A stretch of DNA of 64,000 nt from Algibacter sp. L1A34 (GTDB lineage: Bacteria > Bacteroidota > Bacteroidia > Flavobacteriales > Flavobacteriaceae), in contig NZ_CP047029.1 of the NCBI RefSeq assembly GCF_009796805.1, positions 1,043,501 through 1,107,500 of the forward strand, read 5' to 3'. This document shows, piece by piece, positions 9,429 through 21,349 of the stretch. The notes under the pieces were generated by a model. That model had not been told where the DNA came from and made no database searches. It worked only from the letters and a program-made list of their open reading frames with translations. A program made the position numbers and the translations under genes. Positions within the stretch are counted from its first letter, which is position 1. Each line of letters begins with the position of its first letter.

Positions 9429-9992
9429 ATGACAAAACACAGATGTGGCTGGTGCGAAGGCGATGCTTTATATGAAGCTTATCACGATGAAGAATGGGGA
9501 GTTCCCGTTTATGATGATGCTACCATTTTTGAATTCTTAATATTAGAAACTTTTCAGGCCGGTTTAAGTTGGATTACAGTTTTACGGAAACGTGAAAACT
9601 TCAAAAAGGCTTTTGATAATTTCGACTATAAAAAAATTGCAGAATACAGTCAAGATAAAATGGACGATTTACTTTTGGATGCCGGCATTATTCGGAATAA
9701 ACTAAAAGTAAAAGCTACAGTTACCAATGCACAAGCCTTTATAAAAATTCAAGACGAATTTGGAAGTTTCAGCAAATACATCTGGGCTTTTGTTAAAGGA
9801 AAACCTATTAAAAACAGTGTAGATCATTATAAAAACGCACCACCAAACACAGCAATTAGCGATGCTTTAAGTAAAGACTTAAAAAAACGTGGTTTTAAAT
9901 TTGTAGGTTCTACCGTAGTTTATGCTCACATGCAAGCTACAGGAATGGTAAACGATCATGAAGTGAATTGTTTTAGGTATGCGGAAGTATAA
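9429..9992 (+). CDS. tag: DNA-3-methyladenine glycosylase I
   Basis: Removes 3-methyladenine from alkylated DNA in base-excision repair. The N-terminal HRCGWCEGDALYEAYHDEEWG with the zinc-binding Cys (the Tag zinc snap uses Cys4, His17 and C-terminal His/Cys residues) and ETFQAGLSWITVLRKRENF are hallmarks. The C-terminal HMQATGMVNDHEVNCFR holds the remaining zinc ligands. Length 187 is normal. Its 3' end overlaps the next gene by 14 bases. Confidence 0.96.
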   Translation: MTKHRCGWCEGDALYEAYHDEEWGVPVYDDATIFEFLILETFQAGLSWITVLRKRENFKKAFDNFDYKKIAEYSQDKMDDLLLDAGIIRNKLKVKATVTNAQAFIKIQDEFGSFSKYIWAFVKGKPIKNSVDHYKNAPPNTAISDALSKDLKKRGFKFVGSTVVYAHMQATGMVNDHEVNCFRYAEV

Positions 9993-10656
9993 ATTAATCT
10001 TTCTATTTTTCATTTTTATAACCTTTGAAATGGTTTCTCAGGAAAACCTCAATACTTTAGGCGAAACTAGAATTGCTGTAAACAAAAAAGTTTCGAAGGT
10101 GTATGATATTAATTTCACACTAAGATCGCGCTATTTTTTATACCAAGATAGCCACTTACATTACGACCAACAACAAGTAGATTTTTATCATTTTTCAAAA
10201 TTAAAATTAGATAAACGCCATACTTTAAGTTTAGGTGTTTATTATAGAACTAGAGCCCCTTTTGATAGTGGTAGTAATGAATTACGCTTCTTTGAGCAAT
10301 TTAGTTATAAGCAGCAAAAACTTGGCGTAAAATACGGCCATAGATTTAGAGCCGAACAACGTATACTAGATGCTAATACTATTTTTAGAGAACGTTATAG
10401 GTTTGCGGCAAACGTTCCTTTAAAGGGTGAAACACTAGACATTGGAGAACCTTATTTGACAAGTGCACTTGAAGGTTTATTAAGTTTAAGTGAAACAGAA
10501 AAACCAGAAACAGATATTAGATTAACCACCCAAATTGGTTGGCAAATTACTGAAGACATAAAATTACAAACCGGCTTAGAGCATAGACTCGAAGCTTTTA
10601 ACCTTGCTGCAAAAAACAATTTATTTATTTTAACATCGGCAACCTTAAATATTTAA
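9979..10656 (+). CDS. DUF2490 family outer-membrane protein
   Basis: A 225-residue protein with a signal peptide (about 1-20, ending near MVSQ), then repeated amphipathic beta-strands rich in aromatic and charged residues (LSLGVYYRTRAPF, KLGVKYGHRFRAEQRI) and a C-terminal strand LFILTSATLNI, typical of an 8-12-stranded outer-membrane barrel of the DUF2490 family. Function unknown. The start overlaps the end of tag by 14 bases, so it is probably co-transcribed, although no functional link to DNA repair is apparent. Confidence 0.75.
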   Translation: MRKYKLIFLFFIFITFEMVSQENLNTLGETRIAVNKKVSKVYDINFTLRSRYFLYQDSHLHYDQQQVDFYHFSKLKLDKRHTLSLGVYYRTRAPFDSGSNELRFFEQFSYKQQKLGVKYGHRFRAEQRILDANTIFRERYRFAANVPLKGETLDIGEPYLTSALEGLLSLSETEKPETDIRLTTQIGWQITEDIKLQTGLEHRLEAFNLAAKNNLFILTSATLNI

Positions 10657-10760
10657 AAACTTCCATTAAAACCTAAACTTCCGCAGTGATATAAAACATA
10701 ACTCTAAATTTCTTTATTAAACATTGATGATTGCTTATTTTAGCTTATCCAAATAATACC

Positions 10761-10768
10761 TAGTTTTG
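10761..10768 (+). promoter_or_regulatory. Predicted -7 box of the LytS-type kinase gene, leaderless
   Basis: TAGTTTTG matches TAnnTTTG and lies 5 bases before the ATG at 10774. Confidence 0.5.
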
Positions 10769-10773
10769 CTTTT

Positions 10774-12624
10774 ATGATTTCAAAATACAAAAGCTTGTGG
10801 CAATTAAGTTTTGTCATTTCTTTTTTCATGTTATTTTTCACTTGTTCAAGGCAAGATACTATTCGTCCCGAGATAGAAAAAAAACTAGTTACATTAGGTA
10901 GTTTAGCTCAAACACAACCTCAACAATCACTTCTAGAATTAGATAGTTTACTCGTAAATAATAAAAACCTAACAACTCTGGAGCGCGCCATGTTGTTGTT
11001 TAATAAAGGAGAAACTCTTTATCTAAACGATAAATTTCAAGAAGCATTTAATGTGCATTTAAAGTGTTACAAATTATTTATTGAGCTAAAAGACATATAC
11101 AATGAGGGCCGTTGCTTAATTACATTAAGTGGTGCATCTCTGCACATGGGGGATTTAGAAACATCTCAAGTTTATGCATTAAAAGCATTGAATTTAGCCC
11201 AATTAATTGGAGATACACGCATAGAGGGTAAAGCCTATAATCAGTTATTTAGTTTACATTTTAGATTAAAAGATTACGACAAAGCATTATCCTACATAAA
11301 AGCAACAGATAGTTTATACTCTAAAGGAACGGATACGCTTTCTATTATTTCCATTAAAAACAACACAGCTAGTGTTTATTTGCAATTAAAAGAATACAAC
11401 AAGGCTTTGGCGAGTTACTCGGAAGCAATGTCTTTAAGCCAATCTAAACGAAACCCAAAAATATTAGTTAGTATTTTAAATAACATAGGATACACTTATA
11501 TTGAAGCTGGTGAATACCAAAGTGCAGAAAAATTTTTAAGAGGAGCCATTTCTTTAAATAAAAATATAAAAGCGATTAATGCCGCGCCATATAAAGGCTT
11601 AGGGAATCTGTTTTTATTAATGACTAAAAACGATTCCGCTCAAGCTAATTATAATAAAGCACTAGATATATATGTTTCTAATAACAACACAAAAGATGAG
11701 ATAGAGGTTAGAGATAAGCTAATCGCTATATCTATTATGTCTGGAGATTATGTAAAGGCTTTAAACAACCAAATAGTTCGGGATAGTTTACAATTAAACG
11801 TAAGCCGTTTAGGAAAAAACAGACTTTTAAATTTTGCTAATGTCAACTATGAAGTAAAACAAAAAGAAACGGAAATTAATCATCAAAAAGAAATTAACTC
11901 CAGAAATCAATGGCTTTTAATAAGTACGGTTATGCTGTTTATATTCCTATCTATAGCAACAGCCTTTTATATATATAACACCAAATTACGTGCCGCCAAC
12001 AAAGCCTCGAAACTAGAACAAAGCTTACTGCGTGTACAAATGAATCCTCATTTTATATTCAATACACTAGCTGCTATTCAGAATATAACTTTAGAAGGAA
12101 ACCCAATAAAGTCATCGAATTATATAGCGAAGTTTTCTAAATTAATTAGGCAGAACTTCGACTATGTTAAAAAAGAATCTATTACGCTAGATAAAGAGGT
12201 CGCCATGATTTCTAACTATATAGAAACACAACAATTACGCTTTAACAATGCATTTACATATTCTATAGAAATCACAGAATCGATAGATAGCGCCATAATA
12301 AAAGTACCGCCAATGCTATTGCAGCCTTTTGTGGAAAACGCCATAGAATACGGCTTAAAAGAGAAAAAAGAAGACGGAAAACTTATCCTTAAAATAGAAA
12401 AAGAAGCACAAGGCTTGAAATTTGTTGTTTTAGATAACGGCATAGGAAGATCTGCAAAAGCAAAGCAAGAAAAAATAACAGAAGAGCTCCACGCAACATC
12501 TATTTTTATAGAGCGTTTAAAAATGAGAAAAAAGGGTGAAGAGAAAACCTTTATTATCGAAGATTTATTTGATAATGACAACAACCCTATTGGTACTAAA
12601 GTATTTTTTAAATTAAAAATTTAA
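10774..12624 (+). CDS. TPR-containing LytS-type sensor histidine kinase
   Basis: A 616-residue sensor. It starts with a lipoprotein-like signal (MLFFTCSRQ, Cys near residue 24), then TPR-type helical repeats (about 35-360) likely in the periplasm, a short coiled coil, a membrane segment (about 381-401), a His_kinase domain with phosphoacceptor His426 in QMNPHFIFNTLAAIQN, and a HATPase with PFVENAIEYGLK and VVLDNGIGRS. It is a Bacteroidota YehU/LytS-like kinase with a TPR sensor. Its stop overlaps the response-regulator start by one base (TAATG), so they are co-translated partners. Confidence 0.92.
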   Translation: MISKYKSLWQLSFVISFFMLFFTCSRQDTIRPEIEKKLVTLGSLAQTQPQQSLLELDSLLVNNKNLTTLERAMLLFNKGETLYLNDKFQEAFNVHLKCYKLFIELKDIYNEGRCLITLSGASLHMGDLETSQVYALKALNLAQLIGDTRIEGKAYNQLFSLHFRLKDYDKALSYIKATDSLYSKGTDTLSIISIKNNTASVYLQLKEYNKALASYSEAMSLSQSKRNPKILVSILNNIGYTYIEAGEYQSAEKFLRGAISLNKNIKAINAAPYKGLGNLFLLMTKNDSAQANYNKALDIYVSNNNTKDEIEVRDKLIAISIMSGDYVKALNNQIVRDSLQLNVSRLGKNRLLNFANVNYEVKQKETEINHQKEINSRNQWLLISTVMLFIFLSIATAFYIYNTKLRAANKASKLEQSLLRVQMNPHFIFNTLAAIQNITLEGNPIKSSNYIAKFSKLIRQNFDYVKKESITLDKEVAMISNYIETQQLRFNNAFTYSIEITESIDSAIIKVPPMLLQPFVENAIEYGLKEKKEDGKLILKIEKEAQGLKFVVLDNGIGRSAKAKQEKITEELHATSIFIERLKMRKKGEEKTFIIEDLFDNDNNPIGTKVFFKLKI

Positions 12625-13361
12625 TGATAAAAGCAGTTATAATAGAAGACGAGTTTAATGCTTTAAATACGTTAGACAAACTTATTAAATACACCCAAAA
12701 AGATATTGAGGTTATTGCTAAAATAGATAATGTTACAGACGCTATAACATTTTTAAAAAGCCAAACTCCAGATCTTGTTTTTTTGGATATTGAACTTATT
12801 GGCGGCAATGCGTTTCAAATACTAGAAGCTCTAGATAGTATTGCTTTCAAAATAATTTTCACAACGGCCTATGATGAGTTTGCTATAAAAGCCATTAAAT
12901 TCGATACTATCGATTATTTATTAAAACCTATAGATTCTGAAGAATTATCGGAATGTATTGATAGATTTAGAATTGCTTTTAAAAAGGAACAAGTTTATAA
13001 AAATGCGATAGATAAGGTTTCGGAAATTAATGATAAGGAACTTCAAAAAACATTATTAATTAAAACTGCAGATGCACAATATTTTCTTCAAACAAAAGAT
13101 ATTGTTCGTTGCCAATCCGATGGTGCTTATACTATTTTTCATACTGTAGACAAAAAAATAATGAGTGCTCGCAACTTAAAATATTATGAAAATATTTTAA
13201 GCGAACACACCTTTGTACGCGTACATCAATCGCATTTAGTAAATATAAAATACATAAAATCGATTAATGCTAACAATACCGTTTGCTTAACAAACGATGA
13301 AAGAATACCAGTCGCTACACGAAAAAAATCTTACTTAAAACAGCTTTTAGACACCCTATAA
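12624..13361 (+). CDS. LytTR-type response regulator
   Basis: DNA-binding partner of the kinase just upstream. An N-terminal receiver domain (about 1-118) has acidic residues EDE near 8-10, phosphoacceptor aspartate in LVFLDIELIGGNAFQIL, and the lysine in LLKPID. The C-terminal LytTR domain (about 140-245) has VRCQSDGAYTIFHT and HLVNIKYIKSI. LytTR proteins usually bind paired direct repeats. The targets are unknown, but the five-gene cluster starting 108 bases downstream on the same strand is an obvious candidate; that cluster has its own -7 box. Confidence 0.95.
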   Translation: MIKAVIIEDEFNALNTLDKLIKYTQKDIEVIAKIDNVTDAITFLKSQTPDLVFLDIELIGGNAFQILEALDSIAFKIIFTTAYDEFAIKAIKFDTIDYLLKPIDSEELSECIDRFRIAFKKEQVYKNAIDKVSEINDKELQKTLLIKTADAQYFLQTKDIVRCQSDGAYTIFHTVDKKIMSARNLKYYENILSEHTFVRVHQSHLVNIKYIKSINANNTVCLTNDERIPVATRKKSYLKQLLDTL

Positions 13362-13424
13362 GCGCAAATACAAAACAGAAAATGGCGAATGTAAAACGGT
13401 TTTAAAATCATCCTATTCAAATCT

Positions 13425-13432
13425 TAGTTTTG
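13425..13432 (+). promoter_or_regulatory. Predicted -7 box of the five-gene unknown cluster
   Basis: TAGTTTTG, 36 bases before the ATG at 13469. An AAAAC-GTTTT inverted repeat (about 13393-13403) lies just upstream and might be an operator. Confidence 0.45.
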
Positions 13433-13468
13433 AGGTATATAAACAAATAACCTTTAAATAAAAAGATC

Positions 13469-13879
13469 ATGGGATTAAAAGAAAACAGATTTACAAGAAC
13501 CTTTCAAGAAGAACAATTTCCAGAATTAAAAGATCAAATAATTGAAGCTGCAAGTTTCGATGTTGCTTTTAATATTGAATGGAGTACTTTATTCGAAGAC
13601 CGCTTTTTACACCTTTATAACGACTCCTACCCAAAAATATATTTCTTACCTCTTATAGAAGCCTTTAAGTCTATCACTACAGACGATATGGGTAAAGAAG
13701 CCTTATCTGAAAGCTTAAAAGAAATACACATCACAAACACTAAAGATCATCACAATCCTAAAAATGCTTATTCATTTTCTAACGGAGTTTTAACTGTAGA
13801 CCACAGCCCGATACTTAATGCAGATGATATTGACAACCGAACTAAGGTGTTAGTTAATTTGTTGGAAAACAATTTATAA
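13469..13879 (+). CDS. Unknown protein with MGLKE/EDRF-HLYND domain (short paralogue)
   Basis: A 136-residue protein with no signal peptide or membrane segment, so cytoplasmic. It aligns without gaps to the first 136 residues of the protein at 15604, about half the positions being identical by my count. The best-conserved stretches are MGLKE at the start, EDRF.HLYND..PKIYFLPL, IEAFK, and HSP..NAD. I do not recognise the family. First gene of a five-gene same-strand cluster with gaps of 42, 15, 38 and 6 bases. A stand-alone copy and a fused copy of one domain in one operon suggests they form a complex or recognise a common partner. Confidence 0.8.
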   Translation: MGLKENRFTRTFQEEQFPELKDQIIEAASFDVAFNIEWSTLFEDRFLHLYNDSYPKIYFLPLIEAFKSITTDDMGKEALSESLKEIHITNTKDHHNPKNAYSFSNGVLTVDHSPILNADDIDNRTKVLVNLLENNL

Positions 13880-13921
13880 GTAAAAGTTTAACGTGTAATT
13901 TAATTAGTAATAGTTATTGAT

Positions 13922-14893
13922 ATGTATAGATCTATTTTTTATATTATTTTAATCGGATTGTTTTTATCGCTTGCGAGTTGTAAAGTTTCTGGAGTGGAAG
14001 CTAAAAAAGGACTTGTAGCATATTTAAAAATGCATCATAAAGACAAGTATGAGGTTCTAACTTTTAAAAGAAACTTTAACGCAGCTAGCATGAACCCAGA
14101 TTTATTTTGGGTAGAATTAGAGCTTAAAGAAAACCCAGATATAGTAATAAGCTTTGAATGGAATGCTAAAAACAAAGCATTATACATCTCCTCTCAATAC
14201 AGCCAAGACAGAAGTATTGAATCTTTAACACGTTACCAAGAAGAAGAAATTGTAATAAAAAAGGAATTACACGAGGCATTGGATGATGATGTTCTAGATA
14301 TGGATGTGAATGTGTTTAACCAAACTATTAGCATCAGTTTAGAAACAGAACCATCTCAAAAAGACTTTGAACACTTTTCGAGAAAAATACGTTACGTTTT
14401 AGAGGATTACCCAAATACCTGGACTAGTGAGGCTCATGTAAACTTTAAAACAAAAACAGAAGAGAAAGGATTTTATCAACTTATAGTAAAACCGAATACT
14501 TACAATGATAGTAACAAATCATTTAGATACTATCCAAACTCGATTGTTACAAATAATTTTGGATCCAAAAAAGCTGAAAACATTGATCGTATTATACAAA
14601 AAAAATTTTCTAAACCAGATGCTCCAGTTTTTCTGAATAACATCTGGGTAAACCAAACGCAACTAAACTCATTTTACATTGCTCTTGAAAAATACGAGCC
14701 ACTAAAAAAAGCTGAAGGAAACAGAAATATAACTGAAGGTGTAGGTATGTATATGGTAAAAATGACCTATCCAAACCTTGAAATGGAAACCTTAGCATAC
14801 TACGATTACAAAACAACACCACGAGATGGCATCTCTCTTTATCTAATAGATCAATTACCAGAAGATTACAAATACTTAATAGAACATTCATAA
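13922..14893 (+). CDS. Unknown lipoprotein
   Basis: A 323-residue protein with a clear lipoprotein signal: hydrophobic residues 5-18 and the lipobox LASC with Cys20, so it is exported and lipid-anchored. The remainder is mixed alpha/beta with no domain I can name. Residues after the cysteine (KVSGVEAKK) lack a strong acidic surface-export signal, so the periplasmic face is more likely. Second gene of the five-gene cluster; it is the only exported member, which separates it physically from the cytoplasmic partners. Confidence 0.75.
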   Translation: MYRSIFYIILIGLFLSLASCKVSGVEAKKGLVAYLKMHHKDKYEVLTFKRNFNAASMNPDLFWVELELKENPDIVISFEWNAKNKALYISSQYSQDRSIESLTRYQEEEIVIKKELHEALDDDVLDMDVNVFNQTISISLETEPSQKDFEHFSRKIRYVLEDYPNTWTSEAHVNFKTKTEEKGFYQLIVKPNTYNDSNKSFRYYPNSIVTNNFGSKKAENIDRIIQKKFSKPDAPVFLNNIWVNQTQLNSFYIALEKYEPLKKAEGNRNITEGVGMYMVKMTYPNLEMETLAYYDYKTTPRDGISLYLIDQLPEDYKYLIEHS

Positions 14894-14908
14894 TATCATT
14901 TTTATACC

Positions 14909-15565
14909 ATGAATAAAACAAGTTATTACAAAGCGTTTGTTGCCCAAACGCCAGAGGAAATCTTACAGTCTGTTTTAAAAAAAAATGAAGATGTATTAAT
15001 AGCCATTTCATTGAGTAATGGAATGTATGTAGAAGGCATAATTCTAGATATTAAAGAAAATAGCAGTCAGCAAAAATCGGTTTGTATGCTTTCTCAAGGT
15101 AAACAAGTATCCTTTTTTAACATCTATAACATAGCATTCATAACTATAAAACAACCAGAAAAAATGGTTGTAGAATTATCTAAAGGCTCTATTAGCAGGC
15201 AAATATCGTCCACCAATCAAGAGCTTACTGTATTGCAACTAAAACGCTGGTTAAATACTGAAAAAAATCTATTCGGAAATCAAATAAAAGAACTCAACAT
15301 AGACCACCTTCCTTTAGATCAATTAAATAACAGATTGAATGTTCAAGATATTTTTGCTGCCTTGAAAAGAGCTATAGATCAAATAACAAAAGACACATTA
15401 GGGCAAGATGCTTGGCAAGGCATCGATACCATTGTTTTGCAACAAGCAGACAAGCTACAGTTAAATATTCAAGTAAAAACCTTAACAATATCTATGGCTG
15501 TTAGCAAAGCCTTACCAGAAAAACTATCTAATATTTTAGAAGAAAAGCTTCTTCAGGTATTATAA
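14909..15565 (+). CDS. Unknown cytoplasmic protein, possible N-terminal small beta-barrel
   Basis: A 218-residue protein without signal or membrane segment. The N-terminal 80 residues (EDVLIAISLSNGMYVEGIILDIKE followed by VCMLSQGKQVSFFNIYNIAFITI) have the strand pattern of an Sm-like or related small barrel. The C-terminal part (about 95-218) is helical, ending in a beta-helix motif like LQLNIQVKTLTISMAVSKAL. No catalytic motif is seen. The barrel reading is inference from pattern only. Third gene of the cluster, 15 bases after the lipoprotein. Confidence 0.7.
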   Translation: MNKTSYYKAFVAQTPEEILQSVLKKNEDVLIAISLSNGMYVEGIILDIKENSSQQKSVCMLSQGKQVSFFNIYNIAFITIKQPEKMVVELSKGSISRQISSTNQELTVLQLKRWLNTEKNLFGNQIKELNIDHLPLDQLNNRLNVQDIFAALKRAIDQITKDTLGQDAWQGIDTIVLQQADKLQLNIQVKTLTISMAVSKALPEKLSNILEEKLLQVL

Positions 15566-15603
15566 AAAATAAAAATTCATTTAAAACATTAAAAAATAAA
15601 ATT

Positions 15604-16758
15604 ATGGGACTTAAAGAAAAAAGAATTATTCAAGCATTTCAAAACGATTTATTTCCAGCATTAGAAACTGAGATTAACACGGCGGCAGGCTACACAGTTC
15701 CCTTAAATATTTCGTGGAACACTTTAATGGAAGATCGTTTTTCTCATTTATATAACGATACGTTTCCTAAAATATACTTTTTACCATTAATAGAAGCTTT
15801 CAAAGCCATTTGTATAGACAGTATGGGGGTAGAACTTTTGCAGACCGGATTAAAAAACGTGATTATTGTAAATGAAAACAACGAGCATAATTTAGAACGC
15901 GCTATTACTTTTGAAGATGGCATTTTAAAAATTAACCACAGCCCCGTTATCAATGCAGATAAGATAAAAGACAGAGCTGCACGTATCACTTCTTTATTAG
16001 AAGATAAATTAGAAGACTTTACTGAAGCACCAACAGAAACCACAACTTCTGAATCTAAAAACAAAGAAGAAGCCAAGGAAACTCCTAAAATGGATATCCA
16101 AGAATTATACAATCAATCGTTTCTTATTTCAGCAGAAAAACAAGAAATTTTTGGAGAAATGGTAGATGGTTTAGGCTGGAGTTGTGATATGCTAGAGGGG
16201 AAGTTAACTTACGGAAACGATAAAGTTTTTGACATACAGGTTATAGGAACATATTCTGAAAATGAAAAGAGCTGGTTATGGGCTTGGGGCAATACACAAA
16301 GTGGTATTCCTGAAAAGTTTTTACAAACCGCTCTAGGTATGAAAGCAATAGGAGAAGCTTATCAAATAGACGATTTAACCAATCCAAAAAAAGAACTAGA
16401 CTCAGACCCAGGTGCTTATTTTTCTACCATTGCTTCTGCCATGTTAAAAGAGAGTTGTTATGTTCCATTAACTTTTAAAGGATTAACTGTTTATGTTACC
16501 ATAACTTCAGAAGAAGCAGACAGTAAAGCGCGAACTGCTCCAGCTCTACTTTGTTCTCATTTTACTAAAATTGCAGCAAGCTATACGTTCCCTCATAAGT
16601 ACAGTCTATATTTTTATCTAAAAGCAAAAGGCTACGAAGTAGAACTTCCAGGTAACAATATTATTGCTAAAAAAGATGATGATCAAATTTTAGGAATCTT
16701 TGACTTAAAAGGAAGACTCATGAAAATTTCTAATTCAAAACTAACAGTTAAAGCCTAA
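15604..16758 (+). CDS. MGLKE-domain and DUF6882-like fusion protein
   Basis: A 384-residue cytoplasmic protein with two parts. Residues 1-136 are the paralogue of the gene at 13469 (MGLKEKR, EDRFSHLYNDTFPKIYFLPLIEAFK). After an acidic Glu/Thr/Lys linker (about 137-162), the C-terminal part (about 165-384) resembles DUF6882, with GWSCDMLEGKLTYG and the distinctive SWLWAWGN. DUF6882 has no known function to my knowledge. Its stop is 6 bases before the M48 protease, so the two are likely translated together. Possible substrate-recognition or scaffold partner of the protease (inference). Confidence 0.75.
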   Translation: MGLKEKRIIQAFQNDLFPALETEINTAAGYTVPLNISWNTLMEDRFSHLYNDTFPKIYFLPLIEAFKAICIDSMGVELLQTGLKNVIIVNENNEHNLERAITFEDGILKINHSPVINADKIKDRAARITSLLEDKLEDFTEAPTETTTSESKNKEEAKETPKMDIQELYNQSFLISAEKQEIFGEMVDGLGWSCDMLEGKLTYGNDKVFDIQVIGTYSENEKSWLWAWGNTQSGIPEKFLQTALGMKAIGEAYQIDDLTNPKKELDSDPGAYFSTIASAMLKESCYVPLTFKGLTVYVTITSEEADSKARTAPALLCSHFTKIAASYTFPHKYSLYFYLKAKGYEVELPGNNIIAKKDDDQILGIFDLKGRLMKISNSKLTVKA

Positions 16759-16764
16759 AATATT

Positions 16765-18258
16765 ATGTCATATACATCACAAACACTTTCAGATTTAGAA
16801 AAAGAACATTTAGCTGCTATAAATACAGCTCAAGAAAAAATGATGACAGATTTAAATGAGGCACAAACCTCAGGAAATCATGAAAAGCTACAAGAAGCAA
16901 GTATTCTATTTCAGAATATAACAACACAATTAGCAGAAGAATACACCAAACGTATCGATGAAATTAATACTTTAAACCATAAAGCTGTGGCTGAAAAAGA
17001 GCCAGAGATTTACACCAATAGCAGAACCGATATAGATTTAAATTTATTAGTATATGATGGTGATAGAGATTATGTTATTGCTTTTCAACAAGACGAATTA
17101 ATTCAAAAAACTTTAGAAAAAGTAAACAAAAACAGTGGTAAATTTAAGTCTAGAAAACATTTATTAAAATCTAGCTTAAGGTTAACAAAAACCTTAGCAC
17201 CAATGCTTCATGAAATAGGAGAGCATTGTAAAAACACATTAAAACTTAAAGCCGATATTGAATTTTTTGTTTACCAAAGCGATATTTTTAATGCATCTTG
17301 CTATCCGCCAGACGATAATAAATTATACATTATTTTATCATCAGGAATCTTAGAACGTTTTTCTAAAGAAGAATTAACTTTTGTTGTTGGCCATGAAATA
17401 GGGCATGTACTTTTTGAGCATTTTGATTATCCAGTACGTCAAATTTTAGATACAGGAGAAAATGAATTAGCACCAATCCATGCCATGAAATTGTATGCAT
17501 GGAACAGAAATGCAGAAATAAGTGCAGATAGAGCTGGTTTATTATGTTGCCAAAACTTTGAAGCTGTAGGTCGTACTTTTTTTAAATTATCATCAGGTGT
17601 AACAACAGATTCTTTAGACTTTCAATTAAATGCATACATCGAACAATTTGTAGATTTAGAAGAAGTTTTAAACGATTCTAATTTAGATCCTTCAGATTGG
17701 TATAGCAGTCATCCTTTTAGTCCTTTAAGAATTAAAGCCCTAGAACTTTTTAATAAAAGCGAGACTTATGCTGCTTTTAATAAATCTATTTCTGGTGAAA
17801 TTACAGAAGAAGCTATGGAGGTTGAAATTAAGCGTATTATGTCTTTAATGGAACCTGAAAATTTAGATGAAGAAGGAGAACATTCTGAAAAAATACAACG
17901 CTTAATGTTTTTAGGTGGTTATCTAATTTCGAATGCAGATGGTGTTGTAGACGATTCTGAAATACAAGCATTAAGTAGTATTGTTGCTCCTAAAGTTTTC
18001 GCCAATTGTATGATGACTATAAAAGGATTAACAGAACAAGAAATGATTGAAGAAGTACAACAGCTTACCAAAGATTTGGATGTTGCCCTGTCCGTTATGC
18101 AAAAGCTAAATATATTAAGAGACTTATCCATTATATCTTATGCCGATGGAGAAATAGATGATAGTGAAGTTAATGTTTTATATAACCTAGCAAGGCTTCT
18201 ATATATAAATACAGATTTTATAGATCGTGTTATTGGTGATGCGCAAGGTGTAAATTAG
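16765..18258 (+). CDS. Soluble M48-family zinc metalloprotease with C-terminal TerB-like domain
   Basis: A 497-residue protein. The N-terminal 70 residues are coiled-coil-like. The protease domain has the zinc site VGHEIGHVLFEHF (HEIGH at 210-214) and the third ligand in EISADRAG (251-258), typical of M48. Unlike HtpX or Ste24 it has no membrane segments or signal, so it should act in the cytoplasm. The C-terminal part (about 375-495) has the TerB/DjlA-like pair of acidic loops (SNADGVVDDSEIQAL and SYADGEIDDSEVNVL), fitting metal-binding TerB helices. Last gene of the cluster, followed by a terminator. Confidence 0.9.
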   Translation: MSYTSQTLSDLEKEHLAAINTAQEKMMTDLNEAQTSGNHEKLQEASILFQNITTQLAEEYTKRIDEINTLNHKAVAEKEPEIYTNSRTDIDLNLLVYDGDRDYVIAFQQDELIQKTLEKVNKNSGKFKSRKHLLKSSLRLTKTLAPMLHEIGEHCKNTLKLKADIEFFVYQSDIFNASCYPPDDNKLYIILSSGILERFSKEELTFVVGHEIGHVLFEHFDYPVRQILDTGENELAPIHAMKLYAWNRNAEISADRAGLLCCQNFEAVGRTFFKLSSGVTTDSLDFQLNAYIEQFVDLEEVLNDSNLDPSDWYSSHPFSPLRIKALELFNKSETYAAFNKSISGEITEEAMEVEIKRIMSLMEPENLDEEGEHSEKIQRLMFLGGYLISNADGVVDDSEIQALSSIVAPKVFANCMMTIKGLTEQEMIEEVQQLTKDLDVALSVMQKLNILRDLSIISYADGEIDDSEVNVLYNLARLLYINTDFIDRVIGDAQGVN

Positions 18259-18302
18259 TTAGTGTTTTAAGGGTGTGAGTCCTTAAAAAGTTTTACCACA
18301 AT

Positions 18303-18334
18303 AAAGGTAGTAATTTAATTTACTGCCTTTTTTT
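18303..18334 (+). terminator. Rho-independent terminator of the M48 cluster
   Basis: An 11-pair stem (one G-U) AAAGGTAGTAA / TTACTGCCTTT with a short AT loop, then a T-run. It closes the five-gene cluster. Confidence 0.8.
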
Positions 18335-18426
18335 ATTTGAATAAACACTTTAGTGTGACATACAAATAGACTAATAATCTAGAAAAAGTTGTTAATTATT
18401 TTTTTATCGATATCTTTAAAAAACCA

Positions 18427-18442
18427 AATTGGTTAACCAATT
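18427..18442. promoter_or_regulatory. Perfect 16-bp palindrome, candidate operator
   Basis: AATTGGTTAACCAATT is a perfect palindrome 22 bases before the lyase start codon. Its size and symmetry suit a dimeric repressor or activator site. Confidence 0.5.
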
Positions 18443-18464
18443 AAAATAATTTCAAACTAATAGC

Positions 18465-19274
18465 ATGTATACAATCGCTAAATCATTAATGCTTTCCCTG
18501 TTTTTTATAAGCTGTTCTAACGAAAAAGCAAATACAGATGAAGAAGACAGTTTAATTAAACTTGAAATCGAAATAGAAGTTGATGATTCAGAAACCGGAA
18601 ATACAACAAAAACACCCAACGGAACTTGCAGTACAACCGTAAATTTCGAAGATTTAGTAGTAGAAACCAGCTGGATATCTCAAGACACAGGAGATCGAGA
18701 TACTTTTGATGCCTGCAGTGTAGATGGAGAAAACTGGATGGATAGATACGATACTGATATTGTTATGTTAACCTGTTTAAGCGGTGATAGCCATAGAACA
18801 GAGTTAAAAGAAAACATAGGAGATGAGGCTGCTTTAGACCACTATAAAAAAATGACATTTACTGCTAAATTTACAAATATCCCTGAAAATGGCGTTACAA
18901 TTGCACAAATTCATAATAGAGGAACCGATGTAAAAAGGCCTTGGTTAAGGCTTTACTTTGATAACAACAAAAACATTAAAATAAAGGAAACAGAAACAAA
19001 CCCAACAGGCAGCAGCTCTGATTACACGACTTACACTGGTCCAGAATACATCGAAAATCAAGAAATTATCATAACGATTATAACAGGTGAAAACAGCGAC
19101 AAAAAAGCAGAAATCAGTTTACAAATGGGCGAGGTATCATGGACACAAACGCTTTGGCCAAATGAAGCTTGGAGTGTTAAAAGTGATACATATTACTTAA
19201 AAGCTGGCGTATATACCGAAGGAAATGATACGACACCAAAAGTAGAATATAGCGCGTTTTCAATAAGTCATTAA
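18465..19274 (+). CDS. PL7-like polysaccharide (alginate) lyase lipoprotein
   Basis: A 269-residue lipoprotein (lipobox FISC, Cys17), followed by an acidic, Asp/Glu-rich linker to about residue 50. The remaining ~215 residues carry the three PL7 signatures in order: RTEL (111-114), QIH (148-150) and YLKAGVY (244-250), which in family 7 supply the catalytic Arg, Gln, His and Tyr of the jelly-roll cleft. QIH rather than QVH is usually taken to favour guluronate-containing blocks. The last motif has YTE where YNQ is usual. It would cleave alginate by beta-elimination on the cell surface or in the periplasm. It stands alone without SusC/D or other lyases. Confidence 0.82.
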   Translation: MYTIAKSLMLSLFFISCSNEKANTDEEDSLIKLEIEIEVDDSETGNTTKTPNGTCSTTVNFEDLVVETSWISQDTGDRDTFDACSVDGENWMDRYDTDIVMLTCLSGDSHRTELKENIGDEAALDHYKKMTFTAKFTNIPENGVTIAQIHNRGTDVKRPWLRLYFDNNKNIKIKETETNPTGSSSDYTTYTGPEYIENQEIIITIITGENSDKKAEISLQMGEVSWTQTLWPNEAWSVKSDTYYLKAGVYTEGNDTTPKVEYSAFSISH

Positions 19275-19288
19275 AACAAACCAAGTTT

Positions 19289-19912
19289 TTATAAATAATC
19301 TAGAAACGTTTCTCTATCGATATCCTCCGCACCTAAACTTTCTAAATGATTGGTATAAACCTGGCAGTCAATAAGCTTGTAATTTGTATTTTGAATAAAC
19401 GTTATAAAGCCAACTTTACTAGCATTACTTACTTTGGTAAACATACTTTCTCCACAAAATACACCGTTACCTAAATCAACTCCGTAAAGCCCAGCAACAA
19501 GCGTATCGTTTTGCCAAACTTCAACAGACTTAGCAAAGCCTTGTTCGTGTAGTTCCACATAAGCATCAATCATATGCTCCGTAATCCAAGTGCCGGCTTG
19601 ACCATCTCGTTTCATTTTAGAACACTCGGTAATTACAGTTCTAAAGTCTTTATTTACAGTAACGACAAAATCAGAATTTCTTAAAACTTGCCGCATACTT
19701 TTAGAAACCTTAAGTTTCTCCGGAAATAAAACAAAACGCGGATCTGGAGACCACCATACGATAGGTTCGGCATCATCAAACCAAGGAAAAATACCCGATT
19801 TATAAGCAAGTATTAAGCGCTCTACAGATAAATCGCCACCAATAGCAAGCACACCTTCGGGAGACGCTTCCGAGACATCGGGAAATTGTATGTTTTCGTT
19901 TAAATAATACAC
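19289..19912 (-). CDS. aat: Leucyl/phenylalanyl-tRNA--protein transferase
   Basis: Adds Leu or Phe from aminoacyl-tRNA to N-terminal Arg/Lys of proteins, marking them for ClpAP (N-degron pathway). Family motifs are clear: FPDVSEASPEGVLAIGGDLS, GIFPWF, WWSPDPRFVLFP, GTWITEHMIDAYVELHEQGFAKSVE, and CGESMFTKVSNASKVG. Length 207 is normal for Bacteroidota. The start is GTG at 19912; a TAA stop lies immediately upstream in frame, so no longer start exists. It converges with the lyase gene. Confidence 0.96.
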   Translation of the reverse strand: MYYLNENIQFPDVSEASPEGVLAIGGDLSVERLILAYKSGIFPWFDDAEPIVWWSPDPRFVLFPEKLKVSKSMRQVLRNSDFVVTVNKDFRTVITECSKMKRDGQAGTWITEHMIDAYVELHEQGFAKSVEVWQNDTLVAGLYGVDLGNGVFCGESMFTKVSNASKVGFITFIQNTNYKLIDCQVYTNHLESLGAEDIDRETFLDYL

Positions 19913-20479: not shown

Positions 20480-21349
20480 TTAAGACAGTAATATTCTCCA
20501 AGCATCTTCAACATTACCCAAACTTAAATAATATTGAGCAAGCTCATGCTTTTCATTGTGCGTTGCTGTTTTTATGCTCGGGTTATTCGATCCTAAACTG
20601 GCAACAAATGTTTCAACGCTTTCGGTTGTTGGTAAAGTTTCAACATTACCCAACATCCCTAAATCGTTCCCTGTTAGAACCATGCTGTTTTTAACATGAT
20701 CAGGAAAATTATCAACTCCAACCCCTTTGGTTGCAACTGGTTTTGGTATTTCAAAAAAACCGTTTTTAGCACGACTATAAAAACTACCTCCAGCTCTAGC
20801 CACTAAATCAAGCTTTTCTTGATTTATGGTATCATCTTCATTTAAAACAGCATCATCAATATGCAATTTTACAACCTCACAAATCACCAAATTACCAGCA
20901 CCACCTTCATGCCCTAACCTAATAACTTCATTTACCTTACACTCTATTTGTATAGGAGATTCGGCTACTCGAAACGGTTTCACAATATCAGATTTCAACA
21001 TGGTTAACCCAACTTTATCAAATTCATTAACACCATCGGCATACTCTGTACTTGATAATGACATTTGATGTACTAAATCAAAATTAACCACATTAATTAC
21101 CACCTCTTTCGTCGCTTCTACATTTAATAATGTATGCTTTTCCGTATTATCTTTAACACGTCTAGCCGGCGAAAAAATTAATATTGGCGGCTTTGCGCTA
21201 AACACATTAAAAAAACTAAATGGTGATAAATTAGGATTCCCATCAGCATCCACAGTGCTTGCAAACGCTATTGGCCTAGGCGCTACGGCACTTAACAAAT
21301 AGCTATGCAATTTACTTGTTGCAACACTTTTAGGGTCTATAGATACCAT
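20480..21349 (-). CDS. Flavin reductase-like (DIM6/NTAB) family protein
   Basis: FMN-binding split-barrel protein of 289 residues. The core SAVAPRPIAFASTVDADGNPNLSPFSFFNVFSAKPPI is the typical flavin-reductase-like domain for FMN binding (about residues 17-55). Members reduce flavins with NAD(P)H or act as oxidoreductases on unknown substrates. The C-terminal ~80 residues (about 210-289) are an extra, partly helical extension. A -7 box TACCTTTG lies at 21374-21367 on the minus strand, inside what would be the N-terminal part of the opposite kinase if the longest frame were used. Confidence 0.9.
   Translation of the reverse strand: MVSIDPKSVATSKLHSYLLSAVAPRPIAFASTVDADGNPNLSPFSFFNVFSAKPPILIFSPARRVKDNTEKHTLLNVEATKEVVINVVNFDLVHQMSLSSTEYADGVNEFDKVGLTMLKSDIVKPFRVAESPIQIECKVNEVIRLGHEGGAGNLVICEVVKLHIDDAVLNEDDTINQEKLDLVARAGGSFYSRAKNGFFEIPKPVATKGVGVDNFPDHVKNSMVLTGNDLGMLGNVETLPTTESVETFVASLGSNNPSIKTATHNEKHELAQYYLSLGNVEDAWRILLS

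Follow-up and report, generated by a model that had tools for sequence, protein, structure and literature searches.

The operators of LytTR regulators are described as 9-mer repeats lying 11-13 bp apart, close upstream of a promoter, in systems that target bacteriocin or competence genes (PMC6193735). Here we describe a locus of Algibacter sp. L1A34 (GCF_009796805.1) that resembles those systems in its LytTR regulator, in direct repeats with a period of about 21 bp just upstream of a promoter and in a neighbouring target operon, but differs from them in its sensor, a TPR histidine kinase, in the sequence of its repeat and in its target, which looks like a proteolysis operon. The DNA analysed, hereafter the window, is a stretch of 64,000 nt (NZ_CP047029.1, 1,043,501-1,107,500, forward strand), and all positions given below are window positions. 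On its + strand, the genes for a sensor histidine kinase (HK, 10774-12624) and a response regulator with a LytTR DNA-binding domain (RR, 12624-13361) are followed by five open reading frames (ORFs): A (13469-13879, 136 amino acids (aa)), B (13922-14893, 323 aa), C (14909-15565, 218 aa), D (15604-16758, 384 aa) and E (16765-18258, 497 aa). An earlier note on this DNA had drawn a five-gene cluster, A to E, around a soluble M48 protease with a TerB-like tail. Its ORFs and their spacing of 42, 15, 38 and 6 bases were confirmed, but the boundary was too narrow, and HK and RR belong to the unit. That these seven genes form one unit and are inherited together is well supported, as is two-component control of A-E. 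That the unit works as a two-component-controlled cytoplasmic proteolysis module we regard as about an even bet (probability roughly 0.5), the regulatory part of this reading being considerably more likely than the part that concerns stress proteolysis.

Conservation and distribution of the unit

The profile of the A domain, scanned against 84,980 species genomes, gave 24 named loci, which belong to Algibacter, Maribacter, Zobellia, Pseudozobellia, Tenacibaculum, Aquimarina, Zhouia, a Dokdonia metagenome-assembled genome and Saccharicrinis, the last of which lies outside Flavobacteriaceae. The scan used one short conserved pattern, and distant relatives were missed there. Adding the eight loci of relatives and the window, and subtracting five that are the same contigs in both sets, as judged by length and position, leaves 28 distinct loci. 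Co-conservation was strongly confirmed: A and E occur in all 24 named loci, D in 23 and C in 22. An orthologous HK-RR pair stands directly upstream of A in 23 of the 24 named loci and in 27 of the 28 distinct ones; in the eight loci of relatives, all with E, it directly precedes A every time, and the outer flanks vary between genera. Among 60 relatives, a search with A matches nine genomes, seven strongly and two weakly, and a search with HK at 1e-60 picks out exactly the seven that carry the cluster. Identity across loci is 67-91% for E and, among the 24 named ones, 61-85% for A. Two lesions in Algibacter genomes could be decay or sequencing errors, namely an in-frame stop near the start of A in Algibacter lectus (L047 / L025) and a frameshifted D in another genome of the genus (L023).

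The gene for E is rare: at 1e-20 it turns up in six of 299 family genomes, one of which is the own genome. At 1e-10 it matches 13 of 395 phylum genomes: two in full length (the own genome and G005), one as a distant M48-TerB protein (G539) and ten over the M48 part. An empty site is seen in G003, a genome from the same genus without A, E or HK, where the genes matching 9979-10656 and 19289-19912 are only 8 bp apart; in the window the same flanks enclose 8.6 kb (10657-19288). Most further genes of G003 are collinear; the counterpart of 20480-21349 is also missing, and an alginate-lyase-like gene is gone with the block. This gene (18465-19274, Pfam Alginate_lyase2, E 2.4e-14) adjoins the block downstream, and we treat it as a separate neighbour outside the conserved block because it is absent in Algibacter miyuki and G001 although the unit is present there. 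Spread on plasmids was set aside, since E has matches on only four of 72,556 plasmid records, all below 60% identity and none with 80% coverage. A viral origin was rejected: the profile of the A domain, applied to viral contigs in a pattern scan, picked out 19 stretches, none of which encodes a relative of A.

Gene B is the optional member. Its product, described earlier as a lipoprotein, is an exported protein with a lipobox-like LASC motif. The gene is intact in only 7 of the 24 named loci and shortened or decayed in at least four others, and the lipobox cysteine is absent in three of nine aligned copies. Shortened frames of B were seen in L056, L062 and L067, and a stop-interrupted remnant in L057.

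Two-component control and the promoter repeat

HK combines a TPR region, one clear transmembrane segment near residue 382, a LytS-type His_kinase domain with an MNPHFIFN H-box, and an HATPase domain (Pfam TPR_12 3.8e-21, His_kinase 4.3e-20). Its N-terminus is hydrophobic by eye, though below our hydropathy threshold of 1.6, and the TPR region is probably periplasmic. RR carries Response_reg (1.6e-15) and LytTR (9.2e-20) domains, so that a kinase with an H-box adjoins a LytTR regulator, as in LytTR two-component systems. For the combination of TPR kinases and LytTR among Bacteroidota, a literature search returned one paper, whose title is not relevant.

Upstream of A, a direct repeat, AATACAAAAC-13-TGTAAAAC, with a 21-bp phase (13367-13397, + strand) precedes a -7 box, TAGTTTTG (13425-13432, + strand), of the Bacteroidota TAnnTTTG type; the box had already been proposed for the cluster and was found again. 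We compared 25 promoter sequences, from the window, 22 named loci, L028 and L030. Nineteen of them fit a fixed IUPAC pattern that spans both repeats and the -7 box, and 23 fit a looser regular expression (AATAYAAAAY or CTTATAAAAC, then a gap, a TNTRAAAC-like second repeat and TAnnTTTG), relaxed after the sequences had been viewed. In these 23 the gap measures 13 bp in 21 cases and 12 bp in two, within the 11-13 bp of LytTR operators, and the distance from the second repeat to the -7 box is 27 bp in 22 and 28 bp in one. L050 and L028 have one altered base in the first repeat, and the rest fits by eye. The repeat pattern has a single match in the own 4.64-Mb genome and none in the reversed control, and the fixed pattern is absent from 100 shuffles of the window. 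Aquimarina (L063), the one named locus without the orthologous HK-RR, also lacks the repeat by eye. In that locus another LytTR regulator and a TPR-HisKA_2 kinase lie 244 bp after E (L063:11396-14060), perhaps a replacement of the controller.

In spacing and position the direct repeat fits a LytTR site, and it is a probable operator of RR. We infer that RR acts at this repeat and that A-E are its main target. An induced response is likely because the unit has a sensor kinase, a regulator and a phased promoter repeat. At the other end of the operon, the shared terminator that had been proposed corresponds to a probable intrinsic terminator with an 11-pair stem and a T tail (18303-18330, + strand), and for the segment 18262-18345 the predicted folding is stronger than for 199 of 200 shuffles (z -3.08). 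Terminator-like sites show no excess in the region (3 vs 2.4 in shuffles), a sigma-70 promoter scan gave 20 sites vs 23.5 in shuffles, and an Rfam scan of the window returned nothing at gathering thresholds.

The predicted protease and the MGLKE-domain proteins

E is predicted from its sequence to be a soluble M48-TerB protease with intact zinc ligands. The two domains named earlier are both recovered by Pfam, Peptidase_M48 at 1.1e-17 (64.9 bits vs a curated cut-off of 20.3) and a C-terminal TerB at 1.7e-10 (41.6 bits vs 24.4). The zinc-binding motif reads HEIGH (residues 210-214, 17392-17406, + strand). The earlier note had allowed for an inactive protease domain, but HEXXH and RNAEISADR, the region of the third zinc ligand, are intact in all 24 named loci; both TerB acidic motifs satisfy a strict pattern in 23 of them. 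The cytoplasmic location proposed before also holds, E having no predicted membrane segment, and no segment of A, C, D or E reaches a mean hydropathy of 1.6. As in HtpX and LoiP, two other M48 proteases, the zincin has HEXXH and a downstream glutamate; unlike them, E lacks a membrane or export segment, has a coil-like N-terminal region and ends in TerB. Its NCBIfam matches lie far below cut-off (best 22.3 bits vs 245), which, together with the missing transmembrane segment, places it outside the HtpX subfamily. Compared by sequence with solved structures, E has no match at 0.01. The TerB domain has the two DG..D..E acidic motifs, like TerB of tellurite resistance, but here it is fused to a protease, and Pfam finds no other ter gene among the seven, so that the unit does not qualify as a ter system.

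Proteins A and D have the same small domain (51% over 136 residues), which we call the MGLKE domain; A consists of it alone. The earlier note had recognised two such proteins, but there are actually three, since C carries the domain at its C-terminus (about residues 108-218, 15230-15562, + strand). An hhalign comparison of C with A gives probability 95.9 and E 5.8e-9 over C residues 116-196, predicted helices and strands follow in the same order in the C domain and in D, and a search with the C profile matches the A gene itself in five genomes. The domain is therefore the whole of A, the N-terminal part of D and the C-terminal part of C. In D the MGLKE domain (15604-16011) is fused to DUF6882 (16099-16506), as noted before; Pfam gives E 6.9e-27 and 94.5 bits vs a cut-off of 23.9. 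The MGLKE domain has no significant Pfam, NCBIfam or PDB sequence match. Pfam likewise returns nothing significant for A, B and C, NCBIfam nothing above cut-off for the cluster proteins, and comparison with solved structures by sequence gives one match at E 6 for A and none at 10 for B.

The model of D has a mean predicted local distance difference test score (pLDDT) of 87 and no PDB match in Foldseek at 0.001, the domain having been searched as part of D and of C. The best VIA match of the D model, the zincin-like protein 4l7a (Z 6.8, 131 aligned, root-mean-square deviation (rmsd) 6.3), is under the tool's meaningful level, and a reading of the MGLKE domain as a degenerate zincin was set aside. 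The model also matches uncharacterised giant-virus proteins in BFVD (E down to 1.3e-7), probably through DUF6882. In Tenacibaculum soleae, D (L056:9696-11534) has a BspA-type LRR_5 insert by Pfam, and D is equally long in L057 and L062; Saccharicrinis has a separate LRR_5 gene beside E (L065:9833-10435) with a DUF7691 gene next to it. Because of this insert and this neighbour, we propose D as a recognition subunit.

C had been suspected of being a small-barrel protein, and its residues 12-92 (14942-15184, + strand) are indeed predicted to adopt an Hfq/Sm-like fold in an AlphaFold2 model with mean pLDDT 89. Foldseek places Hfq 6gwk first (E 1.2e-3, prob 1.00), with nothing at 0.001 or below, and VIA aligns Hfq 3hsb (Z 9.6, 68 aligned, rmsd 2.5). 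Unlike Hfq and Sm-like proteins, the C barrel is fused to another domain and has no Hfq sequence match.

Proposed working and rival readings

On the reading that we prefer, the TPR part of HK would read an envelope or periplasmic signal, and phosphorylated RR would bind the repeat upstream of the A promoter and switch on A-E. A, C and D could then meet via their common domain; the Hfq/Sm-like barrel of C would form a ring that serves as scaffold, and D, through DUF6882 and, in some species, its LRR insert, would recognise targets. The M48-TerB protease E would cut the proteins brought to it, and lipoprotein B, where present, might be an envelope accessory. The shared-domain proteins may thus be adaptors or substrates, as the earlier note had supposed. 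A far more detailed version seems doubtful to us: a new Bacteroidota signalling-to-proteolysis machine in which a single dedicated promoter is under the command of a periplasmic TPR sensor, the Hfq-fold barrel, fused to a new adaptor domain, is the basis of a ring, the paralogous adaptors A and D dock on that ring and hand clients to the M48-TerB protease, and A and C are an older block used elsewhere in Bacteroidota with other effectors and TPR kinases.

The pair of A and C does occur beyond the cluster. Among 395 phylum genomes the A profile matched 12, of which two have the full cluster and one, a weak match (G486, E 0.004, internal stop), was left out of the counts. Twelve loci that have A but no E in the stretch fetched were viewed, ten from the other nine genomes together with L031 and L032. 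By profile, a relative of C lies adjacent to A or one gene away in eight of the 12, in a count where L031 was itself part of the C profile and L088 runs off its contig; by eye this applies to L087 too. A search of the phylum with the C profile matched 11 of 395 genomes (five on the A gene, G425 weakly at E 0.004 and G650 at 1e-4) and was not used to count C genes, because it matches A genes and missed C genes found at the ORF level. L084 and L032 have a B-like protein next to A. In L084 and L091 the surroundings of the pair include TPR kinases that belong to other classes, and in L032 a similar one; as these genomes have many kinases of this kind, the association is only suggestive. Genes for DUF1266 and for large TPR proteins were also seen near the pair, in L084 and L086 by Pfam and in L032 by similar-looking neighbours. 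One A-domain protein (L085:7446-7940) has, by eye, an apparent signal peptide with a GLADRR motif right after it, so that the domain could have a role outside the cytoplasm as well. Overall, the A and C pair looks like the core, and HK-RR, D and E like the elaboration seen in the window.

Several points weigh against proteolysis under two-component control as the function of the unit. Eight of the 12 other loci have the pair without E nearby, and its core function could therefore be something other than proteolysis; Zhouia lacks C and D and Aquimarina lacks C, and E thus has no strict need of them. Four of the seven co-occurring genomes belong to one genus and do not represent seven independent events. 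As regards control, inspection of Saccharicrinis (L065) by eye showed no repeat of this kind, although HK-RR is retained there. The pattern was fitted to the same loci on which it was counted, many of them close relatives, and the repeat sequence is unlike the consensus in the table of PMC6193735. Proteolysis, binding and induction are, moreover, all predictions.

If the barrel of C bound RNA, the unit could be a post-transcriptional regulator, with A and D as partners and E adjusting their level. We consider this rather unlikely, although the barrel best matches Hfq structures, its alignment retains an NGxxxxG spacing like that of the Sm1 motif, A and C are the pair shared beyond the cluster, and no protein of the own genome passes the Pfam cut-off for Hfq. 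The YKH motif of Hfq Sm2 is not present in the alignment, Pfam gives no Hfq match for C at E up to 1, and the match to SmD1 (E 0.2) is non-significant; Sm-like barrels among the VIA matches also include WYL regulators and YaeO, and with E in only six of 299 family genomes the unit is no general substitute for Hfq. Polysaccharide use is another context that might be imagined, the unit being a sensor-controlled accessory in marine hosts with an alginate-lyase-like gene just downstream. However, two of three Algibacter relatives (G001, G002) have no such gene following E, none was seen among the listed neighbours in other genera, and Pfam recognises no carbohydrate enzyme or transporter in the unit, which makes this reading highly improbable.

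A defence or conflict system, in which an attack would be detected by the sensor and the lipoprotein and effectors would be switched on or degraded by the protease, would suit the patchy, block-wise presence of the unit and its empty site. The distant M48-TerB protein of G539 (L092, G539:C1:135000-150000) could also be cited in favour, since its gene forms a same-strand run with genes for VWA, Tubulin_2 (PF13809) and several large Pfam-less proteins; vWA and tubulin components occur in published conflict systems (PMC7159879, which does not mention TerB). L092 has the same protease-TerB architecture (28% identity over residues 128-495) but other partners: within the 15 kb examined, the A, B, C and DUF6882 profiles match nothing and an orthologous HK-RR is missing. 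It is possibly a separate conflict-type system. A jumbo-phage paper reportedly covers TerB, tubulin and vWA. PADLOC profiles match none of the five proteins below E 0.02 and none of nine proteins of related loci at 0.001, viral contigs gave no relative of A in the pattern scan, no variable effector was seen in flanks that were not systematically scanned, and E is well conserved; we therefore hold a defence role to be unlikely. Of the protease-centred stress or surveillance system proposed in the earlier note, the conserved protease and the likely induced response fit, whereas the link to defence found no support. Immunity-like or chaperone functions of the A-domain proteins, acting on unseen partners and cleared by the protease, would agree with a small soluble domain in several paralogues beside varied genes, DUF1266 and TPR genes included. 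Partly scanned flanks showed no recognised toxin, and A is not hypervariable at the identities given above; this explanation is very unlikely.

The preferred reading, regulated proteolysis by a seven-gene module, would describe a system for which no counterpart was seen among the papers listed by searches of an open-access library, judged by titles and the openings of abstracts. The analysis defines a domain for which sequence comparison with Pfam, NCBIfam and the PDB gives nothing significant, and it places a protein with a predicted Hfq fold in a genome without a recognisable Hfq. It also turns a vague cluster into a block with a named sensor, a regulator, a probable operator and a predicted enzyme, and this block is testable because it offers one regulator, one probable operator and one predicted catalytic site.

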